Source of the DNA: Frankiaceae bacterium
Lineage (GTDB): Bacteria; Actinomycetota; Actinomycetes; JAVEEB01
Length of the DNA: 10,994 nucleotides
Direction: 5' to 3'
Assembly (NCBI GenBank): GCA_030840665.1
Contig: JAVEEB010000300.1
Location: forward strand, 1-10,994
Positions 1 through 10,994 of the stretch are shown here, one piece after another. The number at the start of each line of letters is the position of its first letter. Positions within the stretch are counted from its first letter, which is position 1. Made by a program: the position numbers and the translations under genes. Below the pieces are notes generated by a model. The model was not told where the DNA came from and did no database searches. It was given only the letters and a program-made list of their open reading frames with translations.

Positions 1-7
1 GCTGACG

Positions 8-79
8 ATGGATATGGTGTGTGCATGTTGTCGTTGTCCTTGCGTGGCTTGGTCCACGGTCGAATGCGGGTGCGCGTGA
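8..79 (+). CDS. Cysteine-rich leader peptide (putative cysteine-responsive attenuator uORF)
   Basis: A 23-codon reading frame (ATG at 8, TGA at 77-79) carries seven cysteine codons, at nt 20, 26, 29, 35, 41, 65 and 71. Four of them are TGT, a rare codon in DNA this GC-rich. The core reads VCACCRCPC and the tail ECGCA. It lies 108 nt upstream of the cysteine dioxygenase-family gene, in the same frame. Poly-cysteine short ORFs, often leaderless, are known in mycobacteria as attenuators in which ribosome stalling at Cys codons changes mRNA folding near the next gene. The cysteine enrichment and the adjacent cysteine-metabolism gene are what I see; the regulatory role is inferred. ATG at 14 or GTG at 17 could be the true start. 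The promoter lies outside the window, so whether the message is leaderless cannot be judged. Confidence 0.78.
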   Translation: MDMVCACCRCPCVAWSTVECGCA

Positions 80-187
80 TCGCGCCGTCCGGCAGCTGTT
101 GTCGCTGCCGTCCGTCCTGACGCCGCCCGTCCCCGGGTCCGGCGTCTCCGCCCCAGCGACCGCCAACAGACCCGAAAGATCACCCCA
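80..187 (+). promoter_or_regulatory. Leader RNA with alternative hairpins between uORF and dioxygenase gene
   Basis: Several helices can be drawn. Hairpin 1 pairs 72-76 with 81-85 and covers the uORF stop codon. Hairpin 2 pairs 90-96 with 104-110 (7 bp, 7-nt loop). Hairpin 3 pairs 119-125 with 140-146, plus inner pairs 126-128/135-137. A competing long-range helix pairs 96-101 with 164-169 and 102-107 with 154-159 (12 bp, one 4-nt bulge). It is incompatible with hairpin 2 and ends 5 nt before the weak Shine-Dalgarno GAAAGA (174-179). No U-tract follows hairpin 3, so control of translation seems likelier than termination. Pairings were found by eye, without energy calculation. Confidence 0.5.
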
Positions 188-733
188 ATGACAGCATCGC
201 TCGACAACTTCGTCCGCCCTGCCTTCGCATCGTCCGCAAGTGCCGTAGCGCTGACCCCTCTAGCGCTCGCGCAGCGTCTCGCCCGCATCCCCGGATTGCG
301 CGACCAGTTGCCGCTTCCTGACGGTGATCGTCGGTGGCTGAAGCTTCCCACGGACGCCGGCTGGGACGCCTGGCTCATCGGCTGGCCGCCCGGGACGCGC
401 ACAGGCTGGCACGACCATCAGGGCTCCGCCGGCGCATTCGTGCCCCTACTCGGTGAACTAACCGAGTGGTCCGTCCCAGCCGCCGATCGGGTGTCGCGCA
501 CGCTGGGCGACGCCGCCGTCCATGCCTCGCACGACGAGGTGCGGATACGCCGGTTCCGCGCCGGAGCGGGCCGCGCGTTCGCCGACCATCACATCCACGA
601 AATGGCGAACCTGACGGATCAGCCCGCCTACTCGATTCACGCGTACGCACCTGAACTGACCGCAATGGCCAGCTACGAGTGGATCCACGGACGGTTGACG
701 TCGGCCGGCCTAGAGACCAGTGACAGCTGGTAA
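188..733 (+). CDS. Cysteine dioxygenase family protein
   Basis: This is a 181-residue cupin-fold thiol dioxygenase of the cysteine dioxygenase type I family, close to the usual bacterial length of about 180-200. Family members oxidise L-cysteine to cysteine sulfinate with a non-haem Fe(II) in the cytoplasm. Visible ligands are the HxH pair H75/H77 in GWHDH, followed by the first cupin segment (GAFVPLLGE), and H137 in HIHEMAN, followed by YSIHAYAP (H151, Y153). The start at 188 follows a weak GAAAGA Shine-Dalgarno 8 nt away. No other start codon lies in frame between it and the uORF stop at 79. The gene stands alone, convergent with the transporter ATPase gene. The Cys-rich leader upstream supports cysteine as the relevant metabolite. 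3-mercaptopropionate dioxygenase shares this fold and cannot be excluded from sequence alone. Confidence 0.85.
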   Translation: MTASLDNFVRPAFASSASAVALTPLALAQRLARIPGLRDQLPLPDGDRRWLKLPTDAGWDAWLIGWPPGTRTGWHDHQGSAGAFVPLLGELTEWSVPAADRVSRTLGDAAVHASHDEVRIRRFRAGAGRAFADHHIHEMANLTDQPAYSIHAYAPELTAMASYEWIHGRLTSAGLETSDSW

Positions 734-747
734 AGGAGGCCCCAGCT
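725..747. terminator. Possible weak bidirectional terminator between convergent genes
   Basis: AGCTGG (725-730) can pair with CCAGCT (742-747) around an 11-nt loop. It overlaps the dioxygenase stop codon and lies 24 bp from the end of the convergent ATPase gene. The stem is only 6 bp and no U-tract follows on either strand, so the call is tentative. Nothing stronger is visible in the 37-bp gap. Confidence 0.25.
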
Positions 748-770
748 AAGTCGCAAGCCGGACAGCGTCC

Positions 771-1745
771 CTACCCGTCAGCCGTGGCGGCGCGTGCCGC
801 CGCGCCCATCGTGAGCACTCCGATCGGAAGGCCGTCCCGATCAGCCACCACCCCGTCGGTGCCGGCGGCAATCATGGCCGACAAGGCGGCGCGGGCGGTC
901 GAGTCGACGGACACGTGAGGCCATCCGTCAGCCTCAGCCCGTAACGGCTCGAGTGCGCCGACAGGGATTCGGGTGACGGCGAGCCTGCGCAGCGCGCGTT
1001 CGCCACCGAGGAAGTCGGCCACGAACTCACTGGCGGGGGCGCCGAGGAGCCGGTCCGGCGTCGCGAACTGCTCCAGCTTTCCCTTGTTCATGACGGCCAC
1101 CATGTCGCCCAGCCGGATGGCCTCTTCGATGTCGTGGGTCACGAACAGCACCGTCTTTCCGAGGTCCCGCTGCAGCCGGGAGAACTCGACCTGAAGGCGC
1201 TCCCGCACGATGGGATCGAGGGCTCCGAACGGCTCGTCCATGAGGAGCACCGGTGGGTCGGCGGCCAATGCCCGCGCCACGCCGACGCGCTGGCGCTGGC
1301 CGCCGGAGAGTTGTGCGGGATATCTCTTGGCGTACACGCCGGAATCGAGCCCGACGAGCTCGAGGAGCTCGAGCACCCGCGCCCGGCGCCGACGGGCGTC
1401 CCAGCCCAGAAGAGTGAGCACCGTCGCCACGTTGTCCTCGACCGTGCGATGCGGAAACAGGCCGCTCGACTGGACGACGTACCCGATCCTGCGGCGCAGG
1501 GCCACGACGTCGCCCGCCGTGACGTCGTGCCCGTCGATGAACAGGTGGCCGGACGTCGGTTCGATGAGTCGATTGACCATCTTGAGCGTCGTCGTCTTCC
1601 CGCAGCCCGACGGTCCGACGAGAGCCACGATCGCACCGCGAGGCACGTCGAGCGAGACGCCGTCAACCGCCGCCGTGCCGTCGGCGTAGCGCTTGGTGAC
1701 GTCGACGAGGCGAATCATCGCTTCTTCGGTAGCGTTCACTGCCAT
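771..1745 (-). CDS. proV: Betaine/carnitine/choline-type ABC transporter ATP-binding protein
   Basis: This is the ATPase of an osmoprotectant (quaternary amine, OpuC/ProV-like) importer, acting as a dimer on the cytoplasmic face of the permeases. With the start at 1745 it has 324 residues. It shows Walker A GPSGCGKTT (44-52), Q-loop Q92, signature LSGGQ (146-150), Walker B LLMDEP with the D-loop GALD (about 167-176) and H-loop H204. The C-terminal 70 residues resemble one CBS repeat, where OpuCA proteins typically have two. ATG at 1745 is chosen because AGAGGG lies just upstream; ATG at 1718 (MIRLVDV) is the alternative, and a GTG at 1772 is less likely. It is transcribed divergently from its presumed permease partners, about 40 bp away. 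The family is clear; the exact substrate is not. Confidence 0.88.
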   Translation of the reverse strand: MAVNATEEAMIRLVDVTKRYADGTAAVDGVSLDVPRGAIVALVGPSGCGKTTTLKMVNRLIEPTSGHLFIDGHDVTAGDVVALRRRIGYVVQSSGLFPHRTVEDNVATVLTLLGWDARRRRARVLELLELVGLDSGVYAKRYPAQLSGGQRQRVGVARALAADPPVLLMDEPFGALDPIVRERLQVEFSRLQRDLGKTVLFVTHDIEEAIRLGDMVAVMNKGKLEQFATPDRLLGAPASEFVADFLGGERALRRLAVTRIPVGALEPLRAEADGWPHVSVDSTARAALSAMIAAGTDGVVADRDGLPIGVLTMGAAARAATADG

Positions 1746-1785
1746 GCACCCTCTCGCGTCGAGCTGCCTCACCCTAAACGAATGG

Positions 1786-2424
1786 GTGTGTCCGGCCTAT
1801 GTCTCGACGCGGTCGACTGAACTGCGGCTCGCCCTTTTGCAGCACATCGAACTGACGCTCGAGTCCGTGCTGCTCGCGTTCGCGCTGTCCCTGCCGTTGG
1901 CCGTCGCGGTGCGGCGAAGCCGTCGCGCGTCGGAGGCTCTGCTCGAGATTTCGACCGCCTTGTACACCGTGCCGTCGCTGGCACTGTTCGCCCTCCTGGT
2001 TCCGCTGACGGGGTTCAAACCGATCACGGTCGTCATCGGCCTCGTCATGTACGCGCTCACCGTTCTCGTGCGCAATGTCCTGACAGGGTTGGCCGGTGTG
2101 CCGGCCGAGGTCGTCGAGGTGGCCCGCGGTCTCGGCATGGGGCCGATGCGGATCCTGTTGACGGTGGAGCTGCCGTTGGCGGTCCCGGCGATCGTGGCGG
2201 GCCTGCGTGTCGCGACCGTGTCCACGGTGGCACTCCTGACGGTCGGGGCCGTGATCGGTTACGGGGGCCTCGGCAACCTCATCAACGACGGCTTCACCAA
2301 CTTCTTCAAGGCCGAAGTCCTCACCGCGTCCGTCCTGTGTGTCCTGCTGGCACTTGCCTTCGACGCCGCGCTCGTCCTCGGCCAGCGGCTGTTGACCCCG
2401 TGGTTGCGAGGCCGGTCCTCATGA
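1786..2424 (+). CDS. proW: Betaine/choline-type ABC transporter permease 1
   Basis: This is an inner-membrane permease of the quaternary amine ABC importer, 212 residues from GTG 1786. About five hydrophobic segments are visible, near residues 22-42, 54-75, 80-98, 131-158 and 180-200. The EAA loop that docks on the ATPase is clear: VVEVARGLGM followed by ELPLAVPAIVAGLRV (about 109-142). The conserved GYGGLGNLI segment sits at 158-166. The start is uncertain. GTG 1786 has no good Shine-Dalgarno, ATG 1744 would overlap the divergent ATPase gene, and homologs generally begin shortly before the HIELTLES-like segment, which favours the shorter form. The TGA stop overlaps the ATG of the second permease, so the two are probably translationally coupled. 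Confidence 0.85.
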   Translation: MCPAYVSTRSTELRLALLQHIELTLESVLLAFALSLPLAVAVRRSRRASEALLEISTALYTVPSLALFALLVPLTGFKPITVVIGLVMYALTVLVRNVLTGLAGVPAEVVEVARGLGMGPMRILLTVELPLAVPAIVAGLRVATVSTVALLTVGAVIGYGGLGNLINDGFTNFFKAEVLTASVLCVLLALAFDAALVLGQRLLTPWLRGRSS

Positions 2425-3122
2425 GCGTGTGGCAGGCGACCATCAGCTGGCTCACGACCGCCGCCCACTGGAGCGGCCCGGAAGGCATCACGACCCGGGT
2501 CATCCAGCACCTGACGCTGTCGGCACTGTCGCTCGCGCTCGCGTGCGCCGTGGCGTTGCCGCTGTCCCTATGGCTGGGTCATATCGGCCGTGGTGGATTT
2601 CTCGCGATCGCGGTGACCAACGTCGGCCGCGCGGTCCCGACATTCGCGCTCCTCAGCGTCTTTTCCCTGACGGCATTGGGATTCAGCAACCGGTCCGTGG
2701 TGCTGGCGTTGGTCCTCTTCGGCATCCCGCCTGTGTTGACGAACGCTTACACCGCGTTACGGGACGTCGACCCAGACGTCGTCGAGGCCGCCCGCGGCGT
2801 CGGCATGACCGGCCCGCAGGTGCTGGCCCGCGTCGAGCTCCCATTGGCGCTTCCGCTTGTCGTCAACGGCATCCGGCTGGCCGCGGTGCAGATCGTGGCC
2901 ACATTGACGATCGCCGCGCTGGTCGCCGGCCCCGGGCTCGGGCGCATCATCAGTCAGGGTTTCGGCACGCACAACAACGGCGAGACCGTGGCCGGGGCGC
3001 TGCTCGTCGTGGCCCTTGCGGTGGTCGTGGAAGGGCTGTTCGCGCTGGCCCAACGGCGGTTGCGCCCATCGCAAGAAAATCGTAATAAACCGAGCGGAAT
3101 TCTTGTCGCCGATCCCAGTTAG
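2421..3122 (+). CDS. proZ: Betaine/choline-type ABC transporter permease 2
   Basis: This is the second permease of the importer, 233 residues, and would form the membrane channel with its neighbour. The ATG at 2421 overlaps the preceding stop codon as ATGA. Hydrophobic segments occur near residues 31-53, 61-87, 92-108, 139-168 and 190-211. The EAA loop reads VVEAARGVGM followed by ELPLALPLVVNGIRL (about 120-153). A GPGLGRIISQG segment at 170-180 matches the GYGGLGNLI region of the first permease. The last 17 residues (from SQENRNKPS) are polar and encoded by unusually AT-rich DNA (about 3073-3110). The symbol follows the mycobacterial proXVWZ naming and is assigned by position and family, so which paralogue is W and which Z is arbitrary. 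Confidence 0.87.
   Translation: MSVWQATISWLTTAAHWSGPEGITTRVIQHLTLSALSLALACAVALPLSLWLGHIGRGGFLAIAVTNVGRAVPTFALLSVFSLTALGFSNRSVVLALVLFGIPPVLTNAYTALRDVDPDVVEAARGVGMTGPQVLARVELPLALPLVVNGIRLAAVQIVATLTIAALVAGPGLGRIISQGFGTHNNGETVAGALLVVALAVVVEGLFALAQRRLRPSQENRNKPSGILVADPS
3060..3088 (+). promoter_or_regulatory. Candidate internal promoter for the binding-protein gene
   Basis: TTGCGC (3060-3065) and TAATAA (3083-3088) lie exactly 17 nt apart inside the AT-rich tail of the second permease gene, about 124 nt before the binding-protein start. Each box matches its consensus at only three of six positions. Binding proteins are usually needed in excess over permeases, which makes a separate promoter plausible. 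Confidence 0.22.
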
Positions 3123-3211
3123 TGTCCTACGAGACCACCAAGCGCGGGCGCGAGCCTGCCAGACACGCGTGTTCCGCCGAGCGGGCACGGGACACAGAAG
3201 GCAGGGCCCCC

Positions 3212-4204
3212 ATGCACCGACGCATCGCCTCCTACGCCACCACTTTCGCGGCTCTGGCCCTGACACTCACGGCCTGCGCGACGAGCACGAAAACCACCGC
3301 CACCGAGTCGGCGGCGACGAGCCCGTCGGTGTCCGGGTCGTCGACGTCCACGGGCAACTCGACGGCCAAGGGTGAGGTCGTGATCGGCGCCGCCGACTTC
3401 TCCGAGAGCGCGCTCCTGGCGCAGATGTATGCGCAACTGCTCACCAAGGCCGGCTACACGACGAAGCTGCAAACGGTCGGCAAGCGTGAGTTGTACGAGC
3501 CGGCTCTCGAACAGGGTCAGATCGACGTCGTGCCGGACTACCTCGCGACGATGGCCGAGTTCCTCAACGCCAAGGTGAACGGCGCCAAGGCGGCAACCGC
3601 CCCGATCGCCACCAGTGACGCTGCTGCCACAGCGGCGGCGCTGCGCACGATCGCCACGCCGCTAGGGCTGACCGTCCTCGAACCGTCGAAGGCGATCGAC
3701 GCCAACGCGTTCGCCGTGACCAAGGCCTATGCGGCCGCTCACAAGCTCAAGACCCTCAGCGACCTCGGCGCCTCCGGGTTGTCCGTCAACCTGGCGGCGA
3801 CGGAAGAGTGCCCGACCCGCCCGTTCTGCGGCATCGCGCTCAAGGACAAGTACGGCATCAAGATCGCCAAGAACGATCCCTTGGGCTTCGGCACGACGCA
3901 GACCAAGCAGGCCGTCAAGTCGGGCAAGGACGACCTTGGCCTCGTCGGTAGCACCGACGGCACCCTCGACTCCTTCGGCCTCGTCATCCTCGAGGACGAC
4001 AAGCACATCCAACTCGCCGACAACCTGGTCGCCATCGTCGGCAAGAAGTTTGCGACGGACACCGCCCTGGCCGCCGCGCTCAACGCCCTCAACGCCGCCC
4101 TCACCACGACGGACCTGGCGGCTCTGGAAGTCAAGGTCGATGGCGAACGCCAGAAGCCGGCGGACGTCGCCAAGGCCTATCTCACGAGCAAGGGCCTTCT
4201 CTAG
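3212..4204 (+). CDS. proX: Betaine/choline-type ABC transporter substrate-binding lipoprotein
   Basis: This is the extracytoplasmic binding protein of the importer, 330 residues, OpuAC/ProX type. It starts MHRRIAS, then a hydrophobic stretch and the lipobox LTAC with C22 as the lipidated cysteine. A Ser/Thr-rich linker (about 24-52) follows. The mature domain opens EVVIGAADFSESALLAQMYAQ (family pattern IGSxxFTESxxLAxxY), followed by the ALEQGQIDVVPDYLAT region (98-113) and ECPTRPFCG with a possible disulfide C200/C206. ATG 3212 is chosen because it places a canonical lipoprotein signal at the N terminus and has AAGGCAGGG just upstream. An in-frame GTG at 3122 would add 30 charged residues before the signal. 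It lies 89 nt after the second permease and is followed by a strong hairpin terminator. The ligand cannot be read from the sequence. Confidence 0.88.
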   Translation: MHRRIASYATTFAALALTLTACATSTKTTATESAATSPSVSGSSTSTGNSTAKGEVVIGAADFSESALLAQMYAQLLTKAGYTTKLQTVGKRELYEPALEQGQIDVVPDYLATMAEFLNAKVNGAKAATAPIATSDAAATAAALRTIATPLGLTVLEPSKAIDANAFAVTKAYAAAHKLKTLSDLGASGLSVNLAATEECPTRPFCGIALKDKYGIKIAKNDPLGFGTTQTKQAVKSGKDDLGLVGSTDGTLDSFGLVILEDDKHIQLADNLVAIVGKKFATDTALAAALNALNAALTTTDLAALEVKVDGERQKPADVAKAYLTSKGLL

Positions 4205-4219
4205 GTATCAACGGGCACG

Positions 4220-4254
4220 CGAAGGGCGATCCGGCTTGCTCGGGTCGCCCTTCG
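4220..4254 (+). terminator. Hairpin terminator after the transporter operon
   Basis: CGAAGGGCGA (4220-4229) pairs perfectly with TCGCCCTTCG (4245-4254). The stem continues through a U-G pair (4230/4244) and CCG/CGG (4231-4233/4241-4243), giving about 14 bp and a 7-nt loop. It begins 15 nt after the binding-protein stop and precedes the def promoter. No U-run follows, which is common for actinobacterial terminators. Confidence 0.8.
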
Positions 4255-4287
4255 GCCGGTGAGAGGAGGCCGATCCCGGCGAGCGCC

Positions 4288-4293
4288 TAGACT
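4288..4293 (+). promoter_or_regulatory. def: -10 box of probable def operon promoter
   Basis: TAGACT matches the actinobacterial housekeeping -10 pattern TANNNT. It lies after the upstream terminator and 35 nt before the def GTG, so the transcript would start near 4300 with a leader of about 30 nt containing AAGGAG (4319-4324). No clear -35 box is seen 17 nt upstream. Confidence 0.5.
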
Positions 4294-4328
4294 CGATGTC
4301 CTGCCGCCGTCGATGCGCAAGGAGCTCC

Positions 4329-4874
4329 GTGGCCGTCCGCCCCATCCGCCTGTTCGGCGACCCCGTCTTGCGGGTGCCCGCCGTCCCGGTCATCGACTTC
4401 GACCGCTCGTTGCGCAAGCTCGTCAAGGACCTGACCGACACGATGCTCGAGGCTTCCGGCGCCGGCCTCGCGGCCCCGCAGCTCGGTGTAGGCCTGCGCG
4501 TCTTCACGTACGACATCGACGACGAGCTCGGGCATCTCATCAACCCCGTCATCGTCACGCGGTCCGACGAGTGCCAGGACGGCGACGAGGGCTGCCTGTC
4601 TTTTCCCGGCCTTGCGTACCCGACATCACGCGCGCTGAGCGTCGTCGCGCGCGGGTTCAACGTGTACGGCGACCCCGTCGAGATCGACGGCAGCGACCTG
4701 ATGGCGCGCTGCATCCAGCACGAGACCGACCACCTCGACGGCGTGCTGTTCATCGACCGCCTCGACGCCGAGCAACGCAAGCTGGCCATGAAGGACATCC
4801 GCGAGGCCGAGTGGTCGGGCGGGCCGCTGGTCGTCAAGGAGTCGCCGCACCCGACCTACGGCACGGGTCGCTGA
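4329..4874 (+). CDS. def: Peptide deformylase
   Basis: This metalloenzyme removes the N-formyl group from the initiator methionine of nascent proteins at the ribosome exit. It has 181 residues and all three family motifs: GAGLAAPQ (44-51), EGCLS (87-91, metal ligand C89) and QHETDHLDG (130-138, metal ligands H131 and H135, catalytic E132). GTG at 4329 is chosen because AAGGAG lies 4 nt upstream and the protein then begins [14 protein letters not shown], as family members do. An in-frame ATG at 4296 falls only 3 nt after the -10 box and would add an atypical basic stretch. It is the first gene of the def-fmt-rsmB-rpe cluster, with only one base before the fmt start. Confidence 0.96.
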
Positions 4875-4875
4875 C

Positions 4876-5805
4876 GTGCGGTTGGTGTTCGCCGGCACGC
4901 CCGAGGTGGCGGTGCCGGCCCTCGAGGCCCTCCTCGCCTCGCGTCACGAGGTCGTGGGGGTCATCACGCGACCCGACGCGCCGTCCGGCCGCGGCCGCGC
5001 TCTGACCGCCAGCCCGGTCAAGGAGCGCGCCCTCGCTGCCGGCCTCGAGGTGCTCACCCCGACGAAGCCGAGCGACCCGGATTTCCAAGCCAGGCTCACC
5101 GCACTGGCTCCCGAGTGCATCCCGATCGTCGCCTACGGTGCCCTCGTCCCGCCGTCCGCGCTCGGCATCCCGTCCCGCGGTTGGGTCAACCTGCATTTTT
5201 CGCTGCTGCCCGCGTGGCGCGGCGCCGCCCCGGTGCAACGCTCGGTCCTCGCCGGCGACGAGATCACCGGCGCGACGACGTTCCAACTCGAGGTGGGGCT
5301 CGACACCGGCCCGGTCTTCGGGGTCATCACCGAAACGATCCGGGCCTCGGACACATCCGGCGACCTCCTGGCGCGGCTCGCGGTCAGCGGGGCCGGCTTG
5401 CTGGTGGCGACGATGGACGGCATCGAGGACGGCTCGCTCGTGGCGGTTCCGCAGCCCCCCGACGGCGTCAGCCACGCGGCGAAGCTGAACCCGGACGACG
5501 TCCGCGTCGACTGGTCGACCCCCGCACTGCACGTGGACCGGCTGATCCGTGCCGGCACTCCAGCCCCGGGGCCATGGACCACGCACCGCGACAAGCGACT
5601 CAAGCTCGGCCCGGTGACACTGGCTCCCGACGCGGAGCCGCTCGGGGCCGGTCACATCCGGCTGGCCGGCAAGTCCGGCGTGTTCGTCGGCACGGGCAGC
5701 GTGCCCGTGCGATTGGGCGAGGTCCGCCCCGAAGGCAAGCCGGTCATGGCGGCCGACGCCTGGGCGCGCGGAGTTCGGCTCGGTGAGGACGATCGTCTCG
5801 TCTGA
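4876..5805 (+). CDS. fmt: Methionyl-tRNA formyltransferase
   Basis: This enzyme transfers a formyl group from 10-formyl-tetrahydrofolate to Met-tRNA(fMet), making the initiator that Def later deformylates. It has 309 residues, the usual length. The N-terminal Rossmann-type domain starts [15 protein letters not shown]. The catalytic triad is visible as N105 and H107 in [13 protein letters not shown] and D143 in GLDTGPV, matching N106/H108/D144 of the E. coli enzyme. The C-terminal OB-like domain spans about 205-309 and begins near [14 protein letters not shown]. The GTG start is one base after the def stop and has no convincing Shine-Dalgarno, so initiation probably depends on coupling to def. 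Its 3' end overlaps the start of rsmB by 23 bp. Confidence 0.96.
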
Positions 5806-7276
5806 CCGCCGCCGCCCGCCCGGCGCAAAGGACCTGCCTCCTGGCGGCAGGGCCGCCCGGGGGAAGGGCGCGGACTCCACGGCGGGCGAGCGAGGCGCCC
5901 GGGAGATCGGTTCGTCCGACCGCCGGCCGCGACGACTGGCCTTCGAAATCCTCCGGTGGGTCGACGAGCGCGACGCGTACGCCAACCTGGTGGTGGCTGA
6001 GCGCCTTGGCGCCGCCGGGTTCGAGCCGCGCGACTCGGCGCTCGTCACCGAGCTCGTGTACGGCACGTTGCGGATGCGCGGCATCCTGGACGCCGTCCTC
6101 GCCAGGGGGAGCAGCCGACCCCTCGACCGCATCGACGCACCAGCCCTGGACGTGCTGCGCCTCGGGGCGTACCAGCTCCTGTTCACGCGGATCCCGCCAC
6201 ACGCCGCGGTGGCCGAGACCGTCGCGGTCGCGCGAGTGGCGGTCAACGCCAGCGTCACCGGGTTCGTGAACGCCGTGCTCCGCCGTGTCGCGGAGAAGTC
6301 GCTCGACGAGTGGCTCACCGTCATCGCCCCGCCGTCTGCCCCCGATCGCCTGGGACACCTAGCTCTCGTGTCCAGTCACCCCCGCTGGATCGCTGCCGCG
6401 TTCGCCGACGCTCTGGGGGGCGACCTCGCCGAGACCGAGGCCGCGCTCGGCGCCGACAACGAGCGCCCCGCCGTCCACCTGGCGGCGCGGCCGGGGGAGA
6501 CCGACCGCGACTCGTTGCTCGCCGGCCTTGGGCACCGCGGGGCCGCGGGTCCGTACTCGCCGTACGCCGTGCACCTCACGGACGGCGCACCCGGTGACCT
6601 CGCCTCCGTGCGCGACCACCGCGTACAGGTCCAGGACGAGGGCAGCCAGTTGGCGGCGTTGGCCCTGGCGCGAGCCTCTATCGACGGCGACGAGAGCCGC
6701 TGGCTGGACATGGCGGCCGGCCCCGGCGGCAAGGCGGTCCTCCTCGCGGGCCTCGCGGCCGAGCGTGGGATCAGCCTCCTGGCGAGCGACGTCGCGCCGC
6801 ACCGGGCGCGCCTCGTCGCCGACAACCTCGCCGGCCGACCATCGGGTGCGAGCGTCATCAGTTCCGACGGTCGCCGCCCAGCGTGGCGCGCCGCCGCCTT
6901 CGACCGCGTGCTGCTGGATGCACCGTGTACAGGCCTGGGCGCGCTGCGCCGGCGCCCCGAAGCCCGCTGGCGCCGGGACGAGGGCTCGGTTCCGGCGCTC
7001 GCCACGCTGCAACGCGAGCTCCTCGCATCGGCCATCGCCGCGACCAGGCCGGGCGGTGTCGTCGGATACGTCACCTGTTCGCCGCATATACAGGAGACCG
7101 TGGACGTGATCGGATGGGCGCGGGCGACGTACGCCGGCGTGGATGTCATCGATGTCCGGCCGTTGTTGCCCGGCGTTCCACATCTGGGGCCAGGCCCGTG
7201 GGTCCAGCTGTGGCCTCACCGGCACGGCACGGACGCGATGTTCATTGCCTTGCTGTCGGTGGGAACCCACACCTGA
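5783..7276 (+). CDS. rsmB: 16S rRNA (cytosine-C5)-methyltransferase RsmB
   Basis: This SAM-dependent enzyme methylates a cytosine of 16S rRNA (C967 in E. coli). It has 497 residues. After a basic, low-complexity N-terminal extension (1-48) comes a NusB-like RNA-binding domain (about 49-175), then the methyltransferase domain. Motif I is [10 protein letters not shown] (308-317), motif IV is DAPCTGLG (379-386, C382), and motif VI is TCS with the catalytic C432. The C terminus has [14 protein letters not shown] 5783, inside the fmt 3' end, is chosen because GGAG (5770-5773) lies 9 nt upstream and no better start precedes the NusB region at about residue 49. The extension contains SSDRR twice (6-10 and 44-48). 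Rpe follows after 31 nt. Confidence 0.93.
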
Positions 7277-7307
7277 GCAGCACCCGTCGTCGCGCCCGAG
7301 GAGGAAA

Positions 7308-7979
7308 GTGGCCGTCCAGATTGCGCCGAGCATTCTCTCGGCCGACTTCGCACGATTGGCCGAAGAGGCCGCCGTCGTTGCCGAGGTTGCCGACTGGCTG
7401 CACGTCGACGTCATGGACAACCACTTCGTCCCCAACCTGACCCTCGGGGCTCCCGTCGTCGCCGCGCTCGCGAAGGCGGCCACGTTGCCGCTCGACTGCC
7501 ACTTGATGATCACCTCGCCGGAGCGCTGGGCCACGTCGTACGTCGAGGCCGGGGCCTCCAGCGTCACGATCCACGCCGAGGCCACGGCTGATCCCACCGC
7601 CGTGGCCCGCGACATCCGGGCCGCGGGCGCGCGCGCCGGCCTGGCGCTCAACCCGGGCACCCCGCTCGACGGTTACGTCGACATGATCGACAGCTTCGAC
7701 ATGTTGCTGTTGATGACCGTCCAGCCGGGCTTTGGCGGGCAGCCGTTCCGCGCGGACGTCCTTCCCAAGATCGCTGCGCTGCGCCGCCTCATCACCGACC
7801 GCGGCATCGACCTGTGGCTGCAAGTCGACGGCGGCGTCAACGCCGAGACGATCGAGCAGTGCGCGGCGGCAGGTGCCGATGTGTTCGTCGCGGGTTCCGC
7901 CGTCTACGCCGCAGACGACCCCGCCGAGGCGGTCCGCCGGCTGCGCGCCTCGGCGACGAACGCCCAGGCCGCCTCATGA
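7308..7979 (+). CDS. rpe: Ribulose-phosphate 3-epimerase
   Basis: This enzyme interconverts D-ribulose 5-phosphate and D-xylulose 5-phosphate in the pentose phosphate pathway. It has 223 residues forming a TIM barrel, the usual size. Family features are [10 protein letters not shown] (5-14), [13 protein letters not shown] (31-43, metal ligands H32 and D34, acid/base D37), DCHLM (H65), [10 protein letters not shown] (136-145) and VDGGVN with D174. GTG 7308 is chosen for the strong GAGGAGG (7298-7304) just upstream and for the family-typical N terminus. The stop overlaps the start of the response regulator gene (ATGA). Its substrate ribulose 5-phosphate also feeds the RibB reaction of the riboflavin operon downstream. 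Confidence 0.96.
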
Positions 7980-8902
7980 ACAGCGTCCTCGTCGTCGACG
8001 ACGACAAGTCCGTGGCCCGCTTCATCGAGACCAACCTGCGGCTCGAAGGGTTCGACGTCCGCCTGGCCCACGACGGCGACGACGCCCTCGACGAGGTTGC
8101 CCGGGACGCGCCGGACCTCGTGCTGCTCGACTGGGGCATGCCGCGGATGGATGGGATCGAGGTGTGCGAGAAGCTGCGCGCCGACCCCCACACGGCTCAC
8201 ATCCCGGTGTTGCTCGTCACCGGGCGTTCCCGCGCCGTCGACAAGGTGATGGGCCTGGCGGCCGGGGCGGACGACTACATCGTCAAGCCGTTCGACCCGC
8301 TGGAGCTCGTCGCTCGCGTCCGCGCGACCCTGCGCCGGAACGCCGAAATGCGCGCTGTTTCGCCGCTCACGGGCCTGCCCGGCAACTACCGCATCGACCA
8401 GGAGATCGGCGACCGGGTCACGGCGGGGGAGCCCTTCGCCGTCTGCCATTTCGACCTCGACAACTTCAAGTCCTTCAACGACGCCTACGGGTTCCTGCGC
8501 GGCGACCAGGTCATCGCCCTCGTCGCGTACGCGCTGCGGGTCGCCATCTCCGAGTCGGAGGCGCCGCCGCCCTTCGTCGGCCACGTCGGCGGCGACGACT
8601 TCGTCATGGTCTGCCGCCCGGAGCAGGCCGAGCCAGCCTGCAACCGGGTGATCGACATGTTCGACGAGCAGGTCCCGGCCCTCCATGACCCGGTCGACGC
8701 CGCCCGCGGCTCCCTCGAGGTGGTCGACCGCAAGGGCGTGCACCGGCAGTACCCGTTGACGTCCATCTCGATCGGCATCGCGATGAGCGGGCGCAAGCAG
8801 TACCGCGACCGGCGCGAAGTCGTCGCGATCGCCGCCGAGATGAAGTCGGTCGCCAAGCAGACCGAAGGCTCCTCGATCGCCATCGACCGCCGCACCTACT
8901 GA
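7976..8902 (+). CDS. Response regulator with variant GGDEF domain (REC-GGDDF)
   Basis: This 308-residue cytoplasmic regulator has two domains. The receiver domain (about 1-120) has acidic residues D8-D10, phospho-acceptor D52 in [12 protein letters not shown]82 and K104 in KPF, so it looks able to be phosphorylated. The GGDEF domain (about 128-308) begins [12 protein letters not shown], has [10 protein letters not shown] (160-169) and carries the signature as GGDDF (205-209) preceded by GHV. The fourth signature residue, normally a metal-binding Glu, is Asp. No RxxD inhibitory site is visible at the usual distance upstream. An insert of about 25 residues (about 236-260) precedes LTSISIGI. It may be a weak diguanylate cyclase or a nucleotide-binding regulator. 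Its ATG overlaps the rpe stop, so the two are coupled. No partner histidine kinase is in the window. Confidence 0.88.
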
Positions 8903-8988
8903 CCCTCGTCACGAGCGTCGGGAATGCCCGCGCGCCACAGGCGTTGATCGCTGGTGTCACACTTGGCCCCGAAAGGTCAGGTAACTGA
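8903..8988 (+). other. Gap between response regulator gene and FMN riboswitch
   Basis: This 86-bp gap must hold the end of the upstream transcript and any separate riboflavin promoter. GCG-CGGG (8915-8922, one bulge at 8918) can pair with CCCG-CGC (8927-8933) as a modest hairpin without a U-tract. TTGATC at 8944-8949 resembles a -35 box, but no acceptable -10 box follows at 16-18 nt. No gene is visible here. Confidence 0.4.
8915..8933 (+). terminator. Possible weak terminator after the response regulator gene
   Basis: A 7-bp stem with one bulged T (8918) and a 4-nt loop lies 12 nt after the stop codon. It lacks a U-run and is short, so read-through into the riboflavin operon is possible. Confidence 0.28.
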
Positions 8989-9120
8989 CGCGCTCCAGGA
9001 TCGGTGTAATTCCGAACCGGCGGTAACAGTCCGCGACCCGCTTCGCCGCACTTTGGGCGGAGCGGTTGACCCGGTGCAATTCCGGGACCGACGGTGAGAG
9101 TCCGGATGGGAGGCAGCGCG
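8989..9120 (+). ncRNA. FMN riboswitch aptamer (RFN element)
   Basis: This RNA binds flavin mononucleotide and represses riboflavin synthesis genes. Conserved RFN blocks appear in order: GGTGTAATTCCG (9003-9014), ACCGGCGGT and AGTCCGCGA (9016-9036), a variable arm (CCGCT 9038-9042 with AGCGG 9061-9065), CCCGGTGCAATTCCGGG (9070-9086), then ACCGACGGT and AGTCCGGATGGGAGG (9087-9113). The closing stem P1 pairs CGCGCT (8989-8994) with AGCGCG (9115-9120). The ribD gene directly downstream fits the known role. The block match is strong, so I am confident without a covariance-model search. Confidence 0.96.
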
Positions 9121-9121
9121 C

Positions 9122-9163
9122 CGTCGTGCCGTGGCGCCCGCGTGCGCCCGTCCGACGATTTTC
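9122..9163 (+). terminator. Terminator-like hairpin in the riboswitch expression platform
   Basis: CGTCG (9122-9126) pairs with CGACG (9153-9157). Inside, GGCGC (9133-9137) pairs with GCGCC (9144-9148). ATTTTC follows directly (9158-9163), the only U-run nearby. It starts two bases after P1 of the aptamer. It could end transcription when FMN is bound, in addition to the ribosome-binding-site block further down. The stem is interrupted by an internal loop, so this is tentative. Confidence 0.4.
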
Positions 9164-9167
9164 GCGG

Positions 9168-9198
9168 CGCCTCCCGCCTGCTCGACTGACGGGAGGTG
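9168..9198 (+). promoter_or_regulatory. ribD: Hairpin sequestering the ribD Shine-Dalgarno
   Basis: CCTCCCG (9170-9176) pairs with CGGGAGG (9190-9196), extended by a G-U and a C-G pair to 9 bp. The right arm holds the Shine-Dalgarno GGGAGG, 6 nt before the ribD ATG at 9203. The left arm can instead pair with GGGAGGC (9108-9114) at the 3' edge of the aptamer. That gives the switch two exclusive states, with FMN binding expected to free the left arm to block ribD translation. Confidence 0.75.
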
Positions 9199-9202
9199 GC
9201 AC

Positions 9203-10288
9203 ATGGCGACGGACGCCGACAGCGTCGCGATGCGTCGCGCCATCGCCCTGGCACGTACAGGACTCGGTACGACGAGCCCGAACCCCATCGTCGGCTGCGT
9301 CATCCTCGACGCCGACGGCGTGATCGCCGGCGAGGGTGCTCACCTGGGCGGCCCCGGCAACCCGCACGCGGAGGTCGTCGCCCTGCGCGGGGCCGGCGGG
9401 CGAGCCCGTGGCGGCACCGCCGTAGTGACTCTCGAGCCGTGCCATCACACCGGTTCGACAGGTCCGTGCAGCCAGGCGCTGCTCGACGCCGGAATTTCGC
9501 GCGTCGTGTACGCCGTGCCCGACCCGAACGTCGTGGCCGCCGGGGGTGCCGCGTTCCTGCGTGCCGCCGGGATCGACGTCGCAGCCGGCGTGCTCGAGGA
9601 GGACGCCGCCCGCGCCAACGAGGCCTGGCTCCTTGCAGTCGCCGCAGGCCGGCCGTTCGTGACCTGGAAGTACGCCGCCAGCCTCGACGGGCGGTCGACC
9701 GCGGCGGACGGCACCAGCCGCTGGATCACGTCCCCACACTCTCGCGCTGACGTGCACGCCTTGCGATCCACCGTCGACGCGGTGCTGGCGGGCACCGGCA
9801 CGGTGCTGGCCGACGACCCCGAGCTGACCGTTCGCGACGCCGACGGGACGGCGGCCGGCCGCCAGCCGTACCGCGTCGTCGTCGGCCGCCGGCCCGTCCC
9901 TGCCCAGGCGCGGGTCCGCGGGCCACGCTCCCTCCTCGTCACCGGTATGGCGGCAACCGCCGGCGAGGGCTGGGACCGCGTGTTTCGCGTCCCCGACGCC
10001 GATGACGGCGTCGACGTTCGCGCCGCTCTCACCGAGTTGCACCGCCTGGGGATTCGCCACGTGCTGCTCGAGGGTGGCGCAACCCTCGCGGGCGCCTTCA
10101 TGCGAGCCGGGCTGGTCGACCGGGTCGTCGCCTACCTCGCGCCGCTCTTTCTGGGCGCCGGCCTCCCGGCGCTCGGCGACGCCGGCGTGGCGACGCTGAC
10201 CGGCGCCCCGCCGTACCGAATCGACGACGTCACCATGCTCGGCGGCGATGTCCGCATCACCGCCCGGCCCGTCCGAGGAGACAGCTGA
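9203..10288 (+). CDS. ribD: Bifunctional riboflavin biosynthesis deaminase/reductase
   Basis: This enzyme performs the second and third steps of riboflavin synthesis from GTP: deamination of the pyrimidine amine, then NADPH-dependent reduction of the ribosyl side chain. It has 361 residues, typical length. The N-terminal deaminase domain (about 1-145) has the zinc site H55 in NPHAEV with catalytic E57, and C80 and C89 in EPCHHTGSTGPC. The reductase domain (about 150-361) has KYAASLDGRSTAADGTSRWI, GTGTVLADDPELT and LLEGGATLAGAF. ATG 9203 is chosen because GGGAGG lies 6 nt upstream within the riboswitch-controlled hairpin. The stop overlaps the ribE start as TGATG. Confidence 0.96.
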   Translation: MATDADSVAMRRAIALARTGLGTTSPNPIVGCVILDADGVIAGEGAHLGGPGNPHAEVVALRGAGGRARGGTAVVTLEPCHHTGSTGPCSQALLDAGISRVVYAVPDPNVVAAGGAAFLRAAGIDVAAGVLEEDAARANEAWLLAVAAGRPFVTWKYAASLDGRSTAADGTSRWITSPHSRADVHALRSTVDAVLAGTGTVLADDPELTVRDADGTAAGRQPYRVVVGRRPVPAQARVRGPRSLLVTGMAATAGEGWDRVFRVPDADDGVDVRAALTELHRLGIRHVLLEGGATLAGAFMRAGLVDRVVAYLAPLFLGAGLPALGDAGVATLTGAPPYRIDDVTMLGGDVRITARPVRGDS

Positions 10289-10902
10289 TGTTCACCGGAA
10301 TCGTCGAAGTGCTCGGCACGGTGCGTGCCGTGGAACGGCTGGGTGACGCCGCCCGGATCCGCATTCAGGCCCCGGGGCTGACCGAGGGCATGCGGCTGGG
10401 GGACTCGCTGGCGGTCGACGGCGTGTGCCTCACCGTCACAGCGTGCGAGGGGGACGTCGTCGACGCCGACGTGATGGCGCAAACCCTCACCCTCACGGGC
10501 ATCGGAGGACTCGCCGCCGGTGACCGCGTCAACCTGGAACGCGCGATGCCGGCAGGCGGCCGCTTCGGCGGTCACCACGTGCAGGGCCACGTCGACGCCA
10601 CGGGCACGGTCCTCGCTCGCGACCCGTCCGAGCATTGGGACGTCGTCACCGTCAGCATCCCTGAGCACCTGATCCGGTACGTCGTGCCGCAGGGGTCCAT
10701 CACCGTCGACGGCGTCAGCCTCACCGTGGTCGACGTCGGGGCCGACCGATTCCGCGTCAGCCTCATCCCCGAAACGCTCGCCCGCACCACGCTCGGCGCC
10801 CGTGCGGTCGGCGCCACCGTCAACCTCGAGGTCGACATCCTCGCCAAGTACGTCGAGCGGCTCCTCGCCGCGTCAGTGCCCGCCACCGGAGAGACCGCAT
10901 GA
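10288..10902 (+). CDS. ribE: Riboflavin synthase, alpha subunit
   Basis: This enzyme dismutates two molecules of 6,7-dimethyl-8-ribityllumazine to riboflavin and the pyrimidine that re-enters the pathway. It has 204 residues built from two homologous lumazine-binding barrels. Domain 1 starts MFTGIVEVLGTV and has GDSLAVDGVCLTV (38-50). Domain 2 begins near GGHHVQGHVDATGTV (94-108) and has GSITVDGVSLTVV (136-148). ATG 10288 shares its A with the ribD stop, with GAGGAG just upstream, so the genes are coupled. Its stop overlaps the next start as ATGA. Some species call this gene ribC. Confidence 0.96.
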   Translation: MFTGIVEVLGTVRAVERLGDAARIRIQAPGLTEGMRLGDSLAVDGVCLTVTACEGDVVDADVMAQTLTLTGIGGLAAGDRVNLERAMPAGGRFGGHHVQGHVDATGTVLARDPSEHWDVVTVSIPEHLIRYVVPQGSITVDGVSLTVVDVGADRFRVSLIPETLARTTLGARAVGATVNLEVDILAKYVERLLAASVPATGETA

Positions 10903-10994
10903 GCCCCATCGAGCACGTCACGACTGAGCAGGACAGTGGAGGCGTCTTCGCCCCCATCGAGCAGGCGCTCGCCGACATCGCCGCCGGCAAGGCC
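10899..10994 (+). CDS. ribBA: 3,4-dihydroxy-2-butanone-4-phosphate synthase / GTP cyclohydrolase II (partial, N terminus)
   Basis: Only the first 32 codons are inside the window. The segment FAPIEQALADIAAGKA matches the start of RibB domains, which make the four-carbon unit from ribulose 5-phosphate. The ATG overlaps the ribE stop (ATGA). In actinobacteria this position usually holds the fused RibBA enzyme, whose second domain opens GTP to start the pathway. The fusion is inferred from context, since the second half lies outside the window. Confidence 0.8.
   Translation, partial: MSPIEHVTTEQDSGGVFAPIEQALADIAAGKA

Follow-up and report, generated by a model that had tools for sequence, protein, structure and literature searches.

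A candidate cysteine-reading leader peptide upstream of a cysteine dioxygenase gene in an uncultured actinomycete lineage

Mycobacterial polycysteine short ORFs act on the gene that follows them through the position of the ribosome: a ribosome stalled on the run of Cys codons frees the start of the next gene, and expression goes up when cysteine is short. Cysteine-responsive attenuators formed by leaderless polycysteine short ORFs were reportedly described in M. smegmatis by Canestrari et al. in 2020. The mycobacterial Cys-leader loci named in the available part of another study are cysA2, Rv0485 and nirA, and no cysteine dioxygenase (CDO) gene is among them (Shell 2015, PMC4633059). Leader peptides with runs of Cys codons have also been placed ahead of cys operons of Mycobacterium and P. 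acnes and ahead of cbs in B. longum (Seliverstov et al. 2005, PMC1262725, available part). These leaders have in common with the locus described here Cys codon runs near the stop codon, no clear intrinsic terminator and a suggested role for Rho, but they precede other operons, and the word 'dioxygenase' is absent from that paper. The uORFC-8-2 motif upstream of cysS in Rhodobacterales, as given in the available part of its description (PMC8632094), likewise has tandem Cys codons in a ribosome-read short upstream ORF, whereas it includes a U-run intrinsic terminator, controls another gene and belongs to another phylum. Eight leader peptides are tabled in the available part of an S. lividans transcriptome study, none of which is called cysteine-dependent or lies ahead of a CDO gene (PMC8079986). 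A literature search on cysteine dioxygenase leaders, attenuation and short ORFs, with most subscription journals outside its scope, gave no paper on a CDO leader among the matches listed. The Cys-reading leaders found described in the literature precede biosynthetic, transport-linked or tRNA-charging genes, while those considered below precede CDO genes in several actinomycete lineages.

The window, by which we mean the whole stretch of DNA that was analysed (10 994 nt, positions 1–10994 of its contig), belongs to an incomplete genome sequence (78 % complete, 503 contigs). It resembles the mycobacterial polycysteine loci in having a short, candidate leaderless frame with a cluster of Cys codons ahead of a cysteine-metabolism gene. 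The original prediction assigned this role to the frame at 8–79, ORF A (Table 1), and placed it 108 nt ahead of a gene of the cysteine dioxygenase family. That distance, from the stop codon to ATG188, is exact, and the gene matches the CDO profile. ATG188 is the likely start of the CDO gene, since the relatives P0001–P0004 begin with MTASLD and P0005 with MTPSLN; P0002–P0008 are 60–73 % identical to the product of the window's gene. The window starts at the first base of the contig, so that the promoter and the true start of ORF A are out of view.

The predicted Cys content of ORF A was borne out on re-reading from ATG8 to TGA77–79, with five Cys codons inside eight at nt 20–43. The cluster was also said to be unlikely by chance, and among 20 000 dinucleotide shuffles of positions 1–187 a short ORF with at least five Cys in eight codons arose in only three, and one with at least seven Cys in 181. 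It is the densest Cys run among the 77 short ORFs of the window (8–60 aa, both strands). However, the five Cys codons stand at the front of the frame and the run stops 11 codons before the stop codon, the last eight codons containing two Cys. No NCBIfam match was found for ORF A at E≤1.

A second Cys-rich frame, ORF B, overlaps ORF A and was missed by the original prediction. It ends in SGSCCRCRPS followed by the stop codon, with the codons CGT CCG TCC TGA at its very end, and three Cys lie in its last eight codons. Tails of at least three Cys in eight codons occurred in 251 of the 20 000 shuffles of 1–187, against three for the ORF A cluster, so the latter is the rarer by chance and Cys count alone favours ORF A. 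Codon usage points the other way, with a GC3 of 0.57 in ORF A versus 0.81 in ORF B and 0.78 in the CDO gene. The coding log-odds per codon (−0.40 for ORF A, −0.09 for ORF B and −0.05 for the third frame) argue against ORF A, and not for ORF B. The ending CxCRPS before a stop codon appeared in seven of 100 000 shuffles of 1–187, and across both strands of 721 959 fetched bases it was matched 80 times at 80 loci (two of them second fetches), all of which are of the Streptomyces type described below. ORF B matched no NCBIfam model at E≤10, NF042934 included, and the VH[MLV]DLxR core present in the Streptomyces-type leaders is missing from it. The original expectation that such a frame would go unannotated thus holds for the two frames of the window, neither of which matches the NCBI models, but not for the class, for which such models exist.

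The hexamer TATGGT forms the only TANNNT-N5–7-RTG match of the window on either strand, and the same in-frame arrangement was present in 79 of 5000 shuffles. In S. lividans, TAnnnT boxes lie at a mean spacing of 6.3 nt from the transcript start and 17 % of transcripts are leaderless, according to the available part of the source (PMC8079986). A box of this kind 4–9 nt before an in-frame start accompanies only 10 of 63 Cys-tail ORFs at other CDO loci. If the box at 13–18 is in use, the transcript begins at 25, within ORF A and past ATG8.

Table 1. Positions of the predicted leader frames, RNA features and cysteine dioxygenase gene in the window
Feature	Position (nt)	Strand	Details
ORF A, the frame first reported	8–79	+	ATG8 to TGA77–79; peptide MDMVCACCRCPCVAWSTVECGCA, then stop; 7 Cys in 23 codons
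TATGGT, −10-like hexamer (TAnnnT)	13–18	+	6 nt before ATG25; any −35 box would fall off the contig
ORF B, probable leader peptide	25–120	+	MLSLSLRGLVHGRMRVRVIAPSGSCCRCRPS, then stop; ATG25, alternatively ATG67; in a different frame from the overlapping ORF A
Hairpin 90–96/104–110	90–110	+	Two TGT codons in the loop; seven of nine predicted folds
Cys codons of ORF B, TGT TGT (CGC) TGC	97–108	+	End 9 nt before the stop codon TGA118–120
Pro-Ser codons of ORF B, CCG TCC	112–117	+	Same as the anti-SD codons of Streptomyces-type leaders
11-bp hairpin, 119–125/140–146 and 126–129/134–137	119–146	+	Starts inside the ORF B stop codon; all nine predicted folds
C-rich, G-poor stretch, candidate for Rho	147–187	+	C minus G 0.32; 0.46 % of 41-nt windows on the strand are at least as high; weak
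CDO start region in 12-bp pairing with the leader 5′ end (25–36)	186–197	+	Predicted folds of transcripts 25–230 and 25–260
Cysteine dioxygenase (CDO) family gene, 181 aa	188–733	+	PF05995 (CDO_I), E 1.8e-20; relatives 60–97 % identical

Upstream regions of CDO genes were compared across actinomycetes. CDO matches were present in 29 of 60 genomes in a search of relatives, none of which is closer than the same class, and in 172 of 345 genomes in a class-wide search in which not all matches were listed; both counts include the window's own genome. The sample consisted of 30 fetched loci (including L002, already in the sample), 60 loci hand-picked across genera and 29 loci from the search of relatives, giving 118 loci or 108 without duplicates; further matches of family f18, many second copies, most matches of family f17 and weaker matches were left out. 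A Cys-tail ORF was defined as a short ORF with at least two Cys in its last eight codons, no more than 330 nt before the CDO profile match. Such ORFs were found at 55 of the 108 loci, against six on the reverse strand, five within the gene itself and a shuffle expectation of 9.7, and with at least three Cys in the tail the corresponding numbers were 32, 0, 0 and 0.4. This supports the part of the original prediction that assigned the locus to a class of Cys-codon leaders extending beyond mycobacteria. The comparison is less favourable by family: Cys-tail ORFs are confined to 6 of 19 families, all at loci from outside the window's own lineage, while the other 13 families with a CDO gene have none. 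Two families dominate, f18 with 18 of 18 loci and f4 (which we tentatively take to be mycobacteria-like) with 26 of 28, the other 17 families contributing 11 of 62. Family f18 is Streptomyces-like, to judge from the leaders that it shares with named loci.

That no leader peptide is at work in the window, with ORF A and ORF B having arisen by chance in T-rich promoter DNA or with the CDO gene under another form of control, would fit the 13 families that have CDO genes and no Cys-tail ORF, as well as an assembly that ends at base 1. We regard this as decidedly unlikely, as it would require a Cys run seen in three of 20 000 shuffles, a shared ending seen in seven of 100 000 and a promoter-like box to have come together by accident ahead of a cysteine-metabolism gene.

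The endings of CDO leaders vary by lineage, and include GCVCRPSC, CECCRP, MRCCCCA, GRCCRCC and TCTAICR, each followed by the stop codon. In genus g42, the leaders of L114 (MASMCCGVMRCCCCA, then stop) and L112 (MVSMCHGVMRCRCCA, then stop) have four and three Cys codons, respectively, right before the stop codon. The leader end in genus g37 (L159 and L161; RRHIDLKRTCTAICR, then stop) gave a partial match, below cut-off, to the NCBIfam Ms4527A Cys-rich leader (E 2e-9). The dissimilarity of the CDO leader peptides in several lineages suggests repeated recruitment.

The position of the Cys cluster within the frame separates ORF A from ORF B. A second search, with no tail condition, covered upstream ORFs with at least three Cys in any eight codons at 188 loci, made up of the 108 loci and 80 named loci (those ranking best among 571 confirmed stretches), among which species may repeat. 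It yielded 102 ORFs at 101 loci, and the cluster reached the stop codon in 97 of the 102 (ties counted towards the stop). Four Cys in eight codons were seen at three of these loci, and five in eight, as in ORF A, at none. ORF B fits this layout and ORF A does not. Together with the CxCRPS ending, common to 78 of 87 Streptomyces-type leaders, and the sole match to a leaderless-type promoter, this makes ORF B the better leader candidate and the original choice of 8–79 as the leader frame probably wrong; choosing by Cys count alone can lead to the wrong frame. On the basis of the shared ending, ORF B is probably the counterpart of the Streptomyces-type CDO leaders.

ORF A could still be the working leader, a ribosome stalled on 20–43 covering the segment 25–36 that pairs with the CDO start and so freeing that start directly. 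In addition to holding the rarest Cys cluster of the window, right over that pairing segment, ORF A ends in ECGCA and a stop codon, resembling some Cys-tail leaders such as MRCRCCA. We consider this reading unlikely, however, given a run that ends 11 codons short of the stop codon where nearly all other CDO leaders carry theirs up to it, a promoter-like box that falls inside the frame, the low GC3 and the missing NCBIfam match. Use of both frames, as overlapping Cys leaders (8–79 and 25–120 or 67–120) forming a two-step sensor on one mRNA, is very improbable. Each frame holds more Cys than chance would give (99 of 20 000 shuffles contained two ORFs with at least two Cys apiece in the last eight codons), ATG67 sits just before the ORF A stop codon and 5 of 108 CDO loci likewise list two upstream Cys-tail ORFs (L112, L127, L151, L167 and L193), but a transcript start upstream of position 8 and a second translation start would be needed, neither of which was seen in the window. 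ORF B as the single leader remains the preferred assignment. The class as such, Cys-codon leaders with NCBIfam models, is known; what is new is a member from an uncultured lineage, whose likely frame is not the one first reported.

The best CDO matches with DNA, other than the window itself and among the matches listed, are of the Streptomyces type. Of the 87 leaders in this set, 70 come from the named loci (80 in all, the best 80 of 571) and the rest from other genomes; among the ten named loci that gave none, four have less than 90 nt of upstream sequence. The consensus of the type is (V/M)TDTxVRLWRRVHMDLVRYAGCVCRPSC and a stop codon. It matches NCBIfam NF042934 above the cut-off (37.1 vs 27 bits) and NF042933, the Ms5788A family, below it (17.9 vs 45). 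An in-frame RTG with TTGAC at −36/−37 is present at 83 of 87 loci, TGTACT being the commonest −10 sequence (50 of 83), and from the TTGAC spacing these leaders look leaderless. The Shine–Dalgarno sequence (SD) of the CDO gene is GGACGG in 86 of 87 loci, in a count that preferred the start with the longest SD match and so leans towards GGACGG, and its exact complement, CCGTCC, forms the tail of the leader in 80 of 87. In 82 of 86 predicted ensembles the SD pairs more with the leader's final 18 nt than with other regions. Its predicted unpaired probability is 0.03 with the leader and 0.16 without it (raw ensemble values, as are the pairing counts), and with 0.16 still so low, other pairings hide the SD too. 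Among the 78 leaders ending in CxCRPS, the Pro codon is CCG in 76 and the Ser codon TCC in all 78, with variable Arg codons (CGC 38, CGT 34, CGG 4 and CGA 2); in the CDO genes, CCG makes up 56 % of Pro codons and TCC 36 % of Ser codons. The near-constancy of CCG and TCC beside variable Arg codons suggests selection on the nucleotides, among loci that are related. GGACGG is invariant in these 86 loci and hence no compensatory change is visible. L031, a second CDO paralogue in a genome of the Streptomyces type (G038), has a different Cys-rich upstream ORF, with the end RCCCSSCHSC and a stop codon. GGACGG is absent from positions 121–187 of the window, ahead of ATG188, so that the Streptomyces-type anti-SD lock is not reproduced there, though the tail codons are present.

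The leader RNA of the window is predicted to be structured. For RNA 25–210 the fold z-score was −3.66 (0 of 200 shuffles), while the stretch 112–210 alone did not stand out from shuffles (z −1.06, 25 of 200). An intrinsic terminator was rejected, as the hairpin at 119–146 has no U run; this hairpin and the C-rich stretch behind it may leave room for Rho-dependent control of the kind proposed for cys operons (PMC1262725). The predicted probability that the CDO start is unpaired was 0.04 with the full leader from 25, and 0.45, 0.80, 0.69, 0.67 and 0.68 with the 5′ end cut to 45, 60, 80, 112 and 122, respectively. A helix of at least 12 bp over the start codon was found in 6 of 1000 leader shuffles, and occlusion of the start was equally strong in 8 of 300, which is weakly unusual. 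The energy of the leader-to-start duplex is ordinary (1508 of 2000 shuffles were equally good), and the idea of an extreme duplex energy was rejected; with the occlusion figure, this makes the pairing between leader and start suggestive only. A search of Rfam with positions 1–800 gave two matches, both below the gathering score and inside the gene (301–362 and 445–512), and a known cis-regulatory element was rejected, nothing in this stretch being over threshold.

The region is, on balance, probably a ribosome-read cysteine sensor ahead of the CDO gene, with the leaderless ORF B as its leader. The frame, the shared ending, the promoter-like site and the fold were computed; translation, a response to cysteine, its direction and whether control acts on translation or through Rho are inferred. 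Transcription would probably start at A25, giving a leaderless mRNA on which the ribosome starts at AUG25 and reads ORF B. Its speed over the Cys codons just ahead of the stop codon would be set by Cys-tRNA, and the speed of passage would decide which RNA structures form from the leader to the CDO start. In ribosome-free RNA the 5′ end of the leader would fold onto the CDO start codon, whereas that start would stay open as long as ribosomes occupy the leader or queue up behind a stalled one. On this reading, the Cys run of ORF A would for the most part be a side effect, in the wrong frame, of a T-rich stretch that pairs with the CDO start, and this pairing is a possible reason for the T-rich run. 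That the RNA instead carries two overlapping Cys-reading leaders, the run of the first frame serving both as sensor codons and as an anti-start lock, in command of a cysteine-degrading rather than a biosynthetic enzyme, is improbable.

As to direction, there is a slight preference for expression going up on cysteine shortage, by analogy with mycobacteria. If the leaders do turn their genes on under cysteine shortage, the role of actinomycete 'cysteine dioxygenases' may be to scavenge sulfur and not to dispose of cysteine; if the direction is reversed, this would be a catabolic use of the Cys-leader device. The Streptomyces-type set, with CCGTCC in 80 of 87 leaders set against GGACGG in 86 of 87 loci, makes the direction of the switch directly testable.

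Some further observations concern the surroundings of CDO genes and the window's genome. A search of genome_contigs with the single CDO sequence gave no relatives. Other sulfur genes of the window's genome were compared for leader style: the two PAPS reductase frames (L201 and L202) both run off the end of their stretches, and Cys-tail ORFs are listed for the rhodanese loci L203, L205 and L206. A comparison of the Streptomyces-type leader with plasmids gave two weak places without annotation. At one locus of that type, L034, the gene downstream of CDO reads by eye as a rhodanese. Beside the CDO gene of the window, positions 771–4201 hold an ABC transporter ATPase gene (771–1772, minus strand), convergent with the CDO gene, two permease genes and a gene for an OpuAC-type binding protein, which together are, from their sequences, an uptake system of the glycine-betaine or choline type.
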